DNA of 29,039 bases from a virus: the IMG/VR virus record IMGVR_UViG_3300022752_000293, positions 1 to 29,039 of that record; one strand, 5' to 3'. Below the pieces are notes generated by a model that searched no databases, was not told the DNA's origin, and was given only the letters and a program-made list of their open reading frames with translations. The translations under genes were made by a program, and so were the position numbers. Numbering within the stretch: the stretch's first letter is position 1; every line of letters starts with the position of its first letter. Shown piece after piece: positions 2,707 to 5,802 of this stretch.

Positions 2707-3915
2707 ATGGCAAATAGTTTATTAACCATTGACATGATTACTCGCAAGGCACTTGAAATCCTTGAGAATAATCTTGTCTTGACCCGCAACGTAAACCGTC
2801 AGTACGACGATAGCTTTGCTGTCGAAGGTGCTAAGATTGGTTCAACCTTGCGTATCCGTTTACCGGATCGCGCACTTGTTACTGATGGAGCTGCTCTGCA
2901 AGTTCAGTCAGATAACGAGCAATTCACCACATTGACTGTTGCTTCACAAAAGCACATCGGCGTTAACTTTACTTCTGCTGAGTTGACCTTGCAGTTGGAT
3001 GACTTTGCAGAGCGCGTTCTTAAGCCGCGTATTAGCCAACTTGCATCAAGCATCGATGCAGACGTTGCTAATTCGTATCTGTATGTTGGCAACACGGTTG
3101 GTACGCCTGGCACAACGCCTGGCACATCGTTGGTTCTGTTGCAAGCTCAGCAGAAATTGAACGAGAACGCTGCTGTGATGTCGCCCCGTTACGCTACGGT
3201 TAATCCCGCTGCTAACGCTGGTTTAGTTGAGGGTATGAAAGGTTTGTTTAACCCCACCGATACGATCAGCAAGCAGTTTAGAAACGGCATGATGGGCATG
3301 GGCGTACTTGGCTTTGATGAGATCAACATGTCTCAGTCGATCAAGCAGTTCACGACCGGCTCACGTACGGCTACCGGCGGCACAACTTCTGCGGCTGTTA
3401 CTAGCGAAGGTGCAACCACCATTGCTATTACCGGCGCAGGCGCTAGCGCAACGGTTAAGGCTGGCGACGTGTTTACCGTGGCTGACTGCTATGCTGTTAA
3501 CCCACAGACCCGTGAGTCAACTGGTTCGCTGTTCCAGTTCGTTGTAACGGTTGATGTGACGCTTAACGGTTCTGGCGCAGGTAACTTGACGGTTGCTCCG
3601 ATGTACTCGGCTAGCAACGCGCTTGCAACGGTTAACAGCTTGCCAGCAACCAGCAAGGCTGTAACGTTTGTTGGTGCAACATCGTCGCAGTACCCACAAA
3701 ACCTCGTCTACCATAAAGACGCAATCACTTTCGCTACTGCCGATCTGATGATGCCGCAAGGTGTTGACATGGCATCGCGTCAGGTTCATAACGGCATCTC
3801 GATGCGTATTGTTCGCCAGTACGACATCAACAATGACCGTATGCCCTGCCGTATTGACGTGTTGTACGGCTACAGTGTGATTCGTCCGCAAATGGCTGTT
3901 CGTCTTTGGGGCTGA
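2707..3915 (+). CDS. Major capsid protein, P22 coat (gp5) family
   Basis: The 402 aa protein starts MANSLLTIDMITRKALEILE and follows the P22-type coat pattern: a helical N-arm, RNVNRQYDDSFA, KIGSTLRIRLP, and a long E-loop/P-domain segment with DDFAERVLKPRISQLAS. A Thr/Ala/Gly-rich insertion at about 220-330 (with VKAGDVFTVADCYAVNPQTR) corresponds to the surface I-domain of P22 coat. The C-terminus has the IRQYDINNDRMPCRIDVLYG pattern. Length is close to P22 gp5 (430 aa). The protein folds as HK97-type coat and builds the icosahedral head on the upstream scaffold. TAAGGA (2696-2701) gives a strong ribosome site. A stable hairpin follows the stop codon. Confidence 0.92.
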   Translation: MANSLLTIDMITRKALEILENNLVLTRNVNRQYDDSFAVEGAKIGSTLRIRLPDRALVTDGAALQVQSDNEQFTTLTVASQKHIGVNFTSAELTLQLDDFAERVLKPRISQLASSIDADVANSYLYVGNTVGTPGTTPGTSLVLLQAQQKLNENAAVMSPRYATVNPAANAGLVEGMKGLFNPTDTISKQFRNGMMGMGVLGFDEINMSQSIKQFTTGSRTATGGTTSAAVTSEGATTIAITGAGASATVKAGDVFTVADCYAVNPQTRESTGSLFQFVVTVDVTLNGSGAGNLTVAPMYSASNALATVNSLPATSKAVTFVGATSSQYPQNLVYHKDAITFATADLMMPQGVDMASRQVHNGISMRIVRQYDINNDRMPCRIDVLYGYSVIRPQMAVRLWG

Positions 3916-3922
3916 TTGATTT

Positions 3923-3940
3923 AGGGGGCTTCGGCCCCCT
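3923..3940 (+). terminator. Hairpin with C(UUCG)G tetraloop after the coat gene
   Basis: AGGGGGC (3923-3929) pairs perfectly with GCCCCCT (3934-3940) around the loop TTCG closed by C-G, an exceptionally stable UNCG tetraloop. The T-run is displaced (TTTTTT at 3951-3956), so it may be a partial terminator or an mRNA 3'-end stabiliser rather than a full stop. Confidence 0.6.
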
Positions 3941-3969
3941 TACCAAATTATTTTTTGAAAGGATTTATC

Positions 3970-4371
3970 ATGGCAATCCCTAATGGCGCTGGCGGCTATC
4001 AATTTAATGATGGTAACGTCGGTGAAGCTCTTTTAATCGTTCAAGGCGCACCTACAGCAATCACCGCAGCGACTACAATGACTGCGGCTCAGCTTGCTAA
4101 CGGTTTGTTTACGTTTGACGGCACGGCTGGTAACTTGACGTTGCCCACCGTTGCTTTGCTTGAAGCAGAAGTTTCTTCAGCAACCAAAGTAAATGCAGCT
4201 TTTGATTTCTTCGTGATCAACATTGATGCCGCAGGTTCAGACACCGTAACATTGGCTGTTGGAACTGGCTGGACAATTGTTGGTGCTGCTGCTGTAACTT
4301 CGGGTACATCAGGACATTTCCGTGCTCGTAAGACCGGCGATGGCACTTGGACTTGCTACCGCGTGTCGTAA
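3970..4371 (+). CDS. Putative head decoration or small virion protein
   Basis: The 133 aa protein starts at the ATG at 3970, supported by GAAAGGA (3957-3963); an in-frame TTG at 3955 would lie upstream of that ribosome site and is rejected. It starts MAIPNGAGGYQFNDGNVGEA, continues with small residues and beta-prone sequence (LIVQGAPTAITAATTMTA, TLTLAVGTGWTIVG-type strands) and ends GTWTCYRVS. The composition is typical of capsid surface or fibre-like proteins. It sits between two strong hairpins right after the coat gene, the usual place for decoration proteins. No enzyme motif is visible. The role is inferred from position and composition. Confidence 0.5.
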   Translation: MAIPNGAGGYQFNDGNVGEALLIVQGAPTAITAATTMTAAQLANGLFTFDGTAGNLTLPTVALLEAEVSSATKVNAAFDFFVINIDAAGSDTVTLAVGTGWTIVGAAAVTSGTSGHFRARKTGDGTWTCYRVS

Positions 4372-4373
4372 CC

Positions 4374-4400
4374 AATAGAGGGCTACGGCCCTCTATTTTT
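4374..4400 (+). terminator. Rho-independent-type terminator with C(UACG)G loop
   Basis: AATAGAGGGC (4374-4383) pairs with GCCCTCTATT (4388-4397) around TACG. The stem has ten pairs and runs directly into TTTTT (4396-4400). It lies between two structural genes of one operon, so it probably trims transcription rather than ending it. Confidence 0.72.
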
Positions 4401-4412
4401 AAAGGATAAATT

Positions 4413-4874
4413 ATGCCTAATACCAAACCAATTGGCGTGGCGTATGAAGATCAAGCTATCAGCGGTGGCTCAGTAGACAACACGCCTATTGGCGCGTCTA
4501 CTGCATCTACGGTTGTTGGTACGACCATTTACGCTTCATCAGAACTTGGCTACACTGCCGCCGCACAAGGTACAGTAACGCAAGCTACTGACAAATCTAC
4601 GGGCGTGACGCTTAACAAATCTTCTGGCCGTATTACGATGAACAATGCAGCTTTAGCTGCTAACACTGCTGTGACTTTTACTTTAACAAATAGTGTTATT
4701 TCTGCTAAAGATGCAATTATTGTTAACGTGTCTGGCGGTGCTACAGCTGCTGCGTATACAACTTATATCTCAAGCATGACCGCAGGGTCTGCCGATATCA
4801 CGTTGCGTAATATGACCGGTGGTAGTTTGAGTGAAGCGGTTATTATTAATTTTGCGATTATTCACGGTGTTTAA
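4413..4874 (+). CDS. Putative virion surface protein with a phage beta-domain
   Basis: The 153 aa protein has a short N-terminus (MPNTKPIGVAYEDQAISGG) and a beta-rich domain from about 45 to the end. The domain carries KSTGVTLNKSSGRITMNNAAL, TVTFTLTNSVI-type strands and the closing pattern GSLSEAVIINFAIIHG. This domain recurs in phage structural proteins, often at the C-terminus of capsid or fibre proteins, and appears to be a trimeric beta fold used for surface display. AAAGGA (4401-4406) supports the start. Context suggests a second decoration or head-fibre protein. The domain class is recognised; the precise location in the virion is inferred. Confidence 0.55.
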   Translation: MPNTKPIGVAYEDQAISGGSVDNTPIGASTASTVVGTTIYASSELGYTAAAQGTVTQATDKSTGVTLNKSSGRITMNNAALAANTAVTFTLTNSVISAKDAIIVNVSGGATAAAYTTYISSMTAGSADITLRNMTGGSLSEAVIINFAIIHGV

Positions 4875-4909
4875 AGGCACGGGGGTTAATCACCCCCGTT
4901 AAAATTATG
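4873..4909 (+). promoter_or_regulatory. Ribosome binding site split from its start codon by a hairpin
   Basis: AAAGG (4873-4877) is the only Shine-Dalgarno-like sequence for the ATG at 4907 but lies 29 nt upstream. Between them ACGGGGGT (4879-4886) pairs with ACCCCCGT (4892-4899) in a perfect 8-bp stem with a 5-nt loop. With the stem folded, 8 unpaired nucleotides separate AAAGG from the ATG, a near-optimal spacing. Confidence 0.55.
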
Positions 4910-5095
4910 GCCGTCATTTATCTTCGCCATCCGGTACACGGCGCTAAAGTCGCAATTTCGCACATGGAAGTTGAACACGACACACAGAACGGTTGGGAAG
5001 AATACGACCCTAATAATTTACATGATGGGTCTGAACCTGTTAATGAACTTCAACCGCGCCGCCGCAGCCGTAAAACTTCGGAGGTTGAGTTATGA
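4907..5095 (+). CDS. Small conserved phage protein, unknown function
   Basis: The 62 aa protein starts MAVIYLRHPVHGAKVAISHM, then has an acidic middle (DTQNGWEEYDPN) and a basic C-terminal stretch (QPRRRSRKT). Small proteins with the YLRHPVHGxKVA start are found between coat and gp4-like genes of podoviruses. No domain of known function is visible. The stop overlaps the next start as ATGA, so translation of the gp4-like gene is probably coupled to it. A hairpin separates its ribosome site from the start codon. The mixed-charge, soluble protein could be a head-tail joining accessory, but that is only positional inference. Confidence 0.6.
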   Translation: MAVIYLRHPVHGAKVAISHMEVEHDTQNGWEEYDPNNLHDGSEPVNELQPRRRSRKTSEVEL

Positions 5096-5802
5096 CAACT
5101 GCTGCTGAAATCATCGATGGATCGCTTCGTCTTCTTGGTGTTCTAGCAGAAGGCGAAACGCCATCTGCTGCTGTCATGCAAGATTCGATCATGGCAATTA
5201 ACCAAATGATTCAATCTTGGGATACAGAACGTTTAGCCGTGTTTAGTACGCAAGATCAAACGTTTACGTGGCCTGCAAATGTTATATCGCGTACTCTTGG
5301 GCCTACTGGCAATTTTGTGGGCAACCGTCCTATTGAAATTGATGATTCTACGTATTTTAAAGATCCGTCATCAGGATTGTCATTTGGTATTAAATTAATT
5401 AACCAACAACAATATGACGGCATAGCGTTTAAAACGGTTACGTCAACTTATCCGCAAGTTATGTGGATTAACAATACATTTCCTGATTTGGAAATGACTG
5501 TTTACCCTGTACCTATTAAAGCCTTAGAGTGGCACATTATTTCGGTTGAAACTTTAACTGAAGTGTCAAGTGTTGCTACTGATATGTATTTTCCACCAGG
5601 CTATTTAAGAGCTTTCCGATATAACTTAGCGTGCGAGCTAGCTCCTGAATTCGGCGTGGAACCATCGCCGCAAGTGCAACGTATTGCTATGACTAGCAAA
5701 CGTAATCTGAAGCGCATTAACTTCCCCGGCGATTTGATGGCGATTCCATACCCGATTGTTGCAACCCGTCAACGGTACAACATTTACGCTAACAACTTTT
5801 AA
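5092..5802 (+). CDS. Head-completion / tail accessory factor, P22 gp4-like
   Basis: The 236 aa protein begins TAAEIIDGSLRLLGVLAEGE and continues with DSIMAINQMIQSWDTERL, the helical opening of the gp4-like family. A beta-rich middle and the segment DMYFPPGYLRAFRYNLACELA follow, where a YxxAxRYNLA-like helix is diagnostic. In P22, gp4 binds under the portal ring, closes the head after packaging and joins it to gp10. The protein is longer than P22 gp4 (166 aa) but matches the longer variants of podovirus metagenomes. GGAGG about 8 nt upstream and ATGA overlap define the start. The gp10-like gene follows with a TAATG overlap, keeping the conserved tail-hub order. Confidence 0.82.
   Translation: MTTAAEIIDGSLRLLGVLAEGETPSAAVMQDSIMAINQMIQSWDTERLAVFSTQDQTFTWPANVISRTLGPTGNFVGNRPIEIDDSTYFKDPSSGLSFGIKLINQQQYDGIAFKTVTSTYPQVMWINNTFPDLEMTVYPVPIKALEWHIISVETLTEVSSVATDMYFPPGYLRAFRYNLACELAPEFGVEPSPQVQRIAMTSKRNLKRINFPGDLMAIPYPIVATRQRYNIYANNF

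Follow-up and report, generated by a model that had tools for sequence, protein, structure and literature searches.

Ribosome-binding sites split by a folded spacer are known from very few genes, namely genes 25 and 38 of phage T4, which provide the experimental precedent (Nivinskas 1999; Malys and Nivinskas 2009; reviewed in PMC3014915). In these split (accommodated) sites, folding shortens the spacing between Shine-Dalgarno (SD) sequence and start codon from 27 to 11 nt for gene 25 and from 22 to 5 nt for gene 38 (PMC3014915). Literature searches for hairpins in such spacers turned up no further case like those of T4. The bipartite ribosome-binding site of E. coli thrS is also interrupted by a hairpin that stays folded, but there the SD lies downstream of the hairpin, a U-rich stretch bound by S1 lies on the other side, and the function of the hairpin is in repression by ThrRS (PMC3858243, PMC3936740).

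Here we describe a junction between head-region genes in a virus record of 29,039 bases, referred to as the window, from a P22-like phage that belongs to a family of uncultured freshwater phages. As in T4 genes 25 and 38, an SD-like sequence lies 5' of a hairpin and the start codon 3' of it, the linear distance of 20-30 nt would be cut to 5-11 nt by folding, and the arrangement is conserved in close relatives. The junction differs from the T4 cases in that it belongs to an unrelated gene and phage group and is known from sequence alone, in that stems of this type have 5-11 mostly G-C pairs and directly follow a stop codon, and in that the stem persists without an SD in many relatives. A G-C stem right after a stop codon, often with a UUCG loop, is also shared with Rho-independent terminators between phage late genes, and hairpins at the neighbouring junctions are of this terminator-like kind, with T-rich tails. 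Unlike terminators, the focal stem is followed by no U run in the window, and a start codon lies within 7 nt of it.

Genes and start codons of the head region

The focal hairpin lies between a head gene of unknown function and a 62-aa gene that has no Pfam or PHROG match (Table 1). The TAA of the upstream gene (4872-4874) overlaps the SD-like AAAGG. ATG 4907 is the genuine start of the 62-aa gene, as the protein is conserved in relatives from there (MAVIYLRHP); a later start was rejected on the same grounds. Other head-region genes with a real upstream gap have an SD, but no SD was found at normal distance before ATG 4907, where the best pairing is +1.2 kcal/mol, as an earlier note on this sequence had reported.

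That note also described the next gene as ATGA-coupled, and the overlap at 5092 is present. Its proposal that the hairpin could set expression of the head-tail connector was not supported, as the gp4-like gene has a strong SD of its own; the focal hairpin could control the connector only by way of coupling, and nothing points to such control. One open reading frame had been listed from TTG 3955; its start is very likely ATG 3970, which is preceded by the SD GAAAGGA (window 3955-3972).

Table 1. Features of the head region, numbered from the first base of the window.
Feature	Position	Strand	Details
Scaffold gene	1893		
Coat gene	2707-3915		Match to P22_CoatProtein, 5e-40
Hairpin after coat gene	3923-3940	+	AGGGGGCTTCGGCCCCCT; followed by SD GAAAGGA for ATG 3970
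Hairpin after the 3970-4371 gene	4374-4397	+	AATAGAGGGCTACGGCCCTCTATT; T-rich tail, then SD AAAGGA and ATG 4413
Upstream head gene	4413-4874	+	153-aa product of unknown function (phrog_18251)
AAAGG, SD-like sequence 5' of hairpin	4873-4877	+	AGG kept in 26/27 clade members
Focal hairpin	4879-4899	+	8-bp stem, 4879-4886 with 4892-4899; 5-nt loop
Single-stranded tail, hairpin to start codon	4900-4906	+	A/T-rich, TAAAATT
62-aa gene with putative split ribosome site	4907-5095	+	
GGAGG, own SD of gp4-like gene	5080-5084	+	7 nt before its ATG; -10.2 kcal/mol
gp4-like head-tail adaptor gene	5092-5802	+	phrog_12985; phrog_637 Ad3
Head closure gene Hc3	5802		

Geometry and folding of the focal hairpin

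The arms of the stem are ACGGGGGT and ACCCCCGT, closed by the loop TAATC (4887-4891). The stem had been described as a perfect 8-bp G/C stem; the eight pairs are there, although two of them are A-U and six G-C. Folded alone, the hairpin has an energy of -13.9 kcal/mol. Each of the six G-C pairs has a probability of at least 0.94 in local folds (71-121 nt), which leave the AAAGG mostly open (0.6-0.99), but over 201 nt both the SD and ATG 4907 become largely paired.

The coordinates given for AAAGG and the hairpin were confirmed, as was the shortening of the spacing: the linear gap from AAAGG to ATG 4907 is 29 nt (4878-4906), and with the hairpin closed it becomes 1 + 7 = 8 nt, within the 5-11 nt of the T4 sites. 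The pairing of AAAGG with the 16S tail is -3.2 kcal/mol, an energy that, like all SD energies here, assumes the usual anti-SD CACCUCCUUA for hosts of contigs that are uncultured. Between stem and ATG no SD was found (tail pairing +1.9 kcal/mol). The G-run of the 5' arm was considered as a hidden SD and rejected, since it is paired and 21 nt from the ATG; many other hairpins in these genomes have their G-runs in the same orientation, which also counts against it.

Taken by itself, a hairpin of this kind is weak evidence, because randomised sequence yields 0-4 with a pair score of at least 22 per window, and the window holds three distinct ones, the focal hairpin among them. The 91-nt focal region folds better than its own shuffles with a z of only -2.0. 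These values would fit a chance hairpin beside a chance AAAGG, a reading that we nevertheless consider very improbable, since the stem is conserved with covariation across 30 lineages (below). It is through this conservation and covariation that the focal hairpin stands beyond chance, although they speak against a chance hairpin and not against a chance SD alone.

As in terminators, the stem-loop is G-C-rich. No U-rich tract was found directly 3' of it (the tail is UAAAAUUAUGG), and a terminator scan did not place it among the terminator-like sites. Its U-tract score is 1.15, compared with 2.48 for the hairpin at 4374 and 1.05 for that at 3923. Rfam covariance models gave no match up to E = 1 between 3800 and 5200.

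Variants of the junction in relatives

We compared 180 distinct homologous start regions of the 62-aa gene, using hairpin and SD thresholds that were chosen by the analyst after the first alignments had been viewed. They come from many IMG/VR contigs and from contigs in Rhodoferax, Methylocystaceae and Oxalobacteraceae assemblies; among cultured or named relatives the small gene is matched by only two phage records, in both of which the hairpin is further from the ATG. A strong hairpin occurs within 55 nt before the ATG in 152 of the 180 regions; related sequences are not independent. In group A (95 regions, forming 30 lineages when grouped by upstream sequence) only 3-11 nt separate the end of the hairpin from the ATG, and they contain nothing SD-like. 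In group B (53 regions, 29 lineages) this distance is 12-20 nt, and an SD usually comes after the hairpin.

The family thus offers 180 natural variants of one junction, with split sites, hairpins without SD, an SD after the hairpin, or no hairpin. A stem 3-10 nt from the ATG, with an SD neither before nor after it, is found at 29 of 69 distinct junctions and in about half of the 30 lineages. Among the relatives compared, none keeps the SD-to-ATG distance without the stem, the case that would have told against a spacing function; the reverse, a stem kept without an SD, does occur. In some relatives (L233, L234 and L238) a different hairpin, with the arm TGGCCTCACG, has a T5 tail that leads directly into the ATG, and an SD is absent both before and after it.

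The hairpin-free relatives suggest another way of starting the small gene. In the 25 with a placeable upstream gene end, stop and start are -1 to 5 nt apart. L256, L263, L268, L284 and similar relatives are of this kind, with the upstream stop touching the ATG of the small gene and many having no SD; stop-start coupling is likely in them. By extension, a ribosome ending at TAA 4872-4874 could restart at ATG 4907, with the hairpin keeping the two close: they are 32 nt apart in sequence and 11 nt with the hairpin closed, and the effective distance is 7-25 nt in 94 of the 95 hairpin-adjacent relatives. Termination-reinitiation would account for the members without an SD. We regard it as unlikely for the window, since a ribosome sliding from stop to start should be impeded by a stable G-C stem on its way, and the position of the hairpin at other junctions does not need it. 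To our knowledge, there is no precedent for a ribosome reinitiating on the far side of a folded hairpin.

Conservation and covariation

The stem covaries in 30 diverse group A members. Both sides have changed in five of the eight pairs, and there are 27 double-change cells compared with 9.1 in shuffles, none of the 500 shuffles reaching as high; slid registers fail the same test. The alignment was made with MAFFT and did not use the structure; the score is lowered by three rows that are clearly out of alignment.

In the window's clade, the 27 relatives that share the upstream gene type, AGG stands just 5' of the stem and directly after the stop in 26. It occurs in the contexts TAAAGG, TAAGG and TAGAGG, while loop, outer pairs and tail vary. 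Where the site is split, the effective spacing from GG to ATG is 8-15 nt in 51 of 54 cases; the 8 nt of the window agree with the 7-8 nt usual at other junctions.

The SD is less constant across lineages. An SD-like sequence with an energy of -3 or better precedes the hairpin in 10 of 30 group A lineages, compared with 4 of 29 in group B, and the group A value is no different from shuffles of those 12 pre-hairpin bases, which are SD-like in 28 +- 6.5%. In favour of a split site, the split state is scattered on a tree of the adaptor proteins, with 12 changes, at least six of them forced by well-supported branches; this was a quick tree, and phages exchange the upstream gene. Even close relatives among the adaptor genes alternate between an SD and a weak one or none while hairpin and tail stay. 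L106 and L116, for example, have identical adaptor proteins but carry TAAGGAA and TAATGGTAT, respectively, before nearly the same hairpin and tail. Therefore, the gene downstream seems to carry the hairpin along with it and the gene upstream the SD, and to judge from these sequences the SD before the hairpin seems not to be indispensable.

Placement of the SD at focal and control junctions

A G-C hairpin is found at three successive junctions after the coat gene (3923-3940, 4374-4397 and 4879-4899), and this recurs in many relatives. T-rich stretches follow the first two, and all three may be partial terminators or may stabilise the RNA of the head genes. The focal hairpin might be a plain intercistronic element that terminates the upstream head-gene message or stabilises its 3' end, with the AAAGG beside the stop incidental and an SD-free start aided by ribosomal protein S1 and the A/T-rich tail. 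The comparable hairpins after the two preceding genes agree with this, as do the focal junctions without any SD, the shuffled pre-hairpin bases that reach SD-like energies about as often, and a further group of relatives in which a T-rich tail and a normal SD follow the focal hairpin.

The control junctions from the same group of genomes are the most telling evidence for an SD before the stem. At 98 other hairpin junctions in group A genomes, a set that includes a few chance hairpins inside genes, the SD follows the hairpin in 90 and precedes it in one; at the focal junction (n = 69) it follows in none and precedes in 40 (Fisher 6e-11, a value overstated by the relatedness of the sequences). 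This displacement argues against a plain hairpin, as do the conservation of AGG amid varying surroundings and the U-poor tail, although the tail of the 3923 hairpin scores no higher. We consider the plain hairpin possible but doubtful.

A proposed split ribosome site on an intercistronic hairpin

The sequence itself, the covariation of the stem, the conservation of AGG in the clade, and the displacement of the SD at the focal junction only are established. Building on them, we consider it an evenly balanced call that, in the window's lineage, an intercistronic hairpin of the coat operon lies against a start codon and is tolerated by means of a split ribosome site like those of T4 genes 25 and 38. 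The hairpin would be one of the set that follows the coat gene and the next two genes, probably serving primarily as 3'-end elements of the upstream message, either terminator-like or stabilising. The focal one adjoins the next start codon so closely that an SD does not fit between them. In the lineage of the window, as in several more, the 30S subunit would instead pair with AAGG just 5' of the stem, the stem would be carried folded on the platform side of the 30S during initiation, and the ATG would reach the P site across an effective 8 nt (8-15 nt in most relatives). Lineages without an SD would start by another route, perhaps reinitiation.

The likeness to T4 gene 38 put forward in the earlier note thus stands in part: geometry, covariation, the AGG of the clade and an SD before the hairpin only where none follows all agree with it, but the relatives that keep the stem without an SD do not. 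Because of these relatives, and because related adaptor genes swap the SD, the stem is not kept only to bridge an SD, and it probably has an older and more ordinary function as well. Also against a split site, AAGG is weak and shares half of its bases with the stop codon TAA(A), and the SD and ATG become paired in longer folds. Our confidence is modest because the lineage-level SD test in group A is no better than shuffles.

A related but improbable reading is that the start-proximal hairpin (3-10 nt before the ATG) is itself the conserved initiation element in this phage family, with or without an SD. It would keep the upstream stop, together with any SD, close to the start codon, allowing hairpin-bridged initiation or reinitiation.

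The variants of the junction provide a natural test of a folded spacer replacing linear spacing, and of SD loss with the stem kept. They are also a caution for gene finders, which expect an SD close to the start codon. In L106 and L116, different upstream genes are joined at the hairpin, and GGGGGCTTCGGCCCCC hairpins are repeated; such hairpins may act as joints for the exchange of head-decoration genes.
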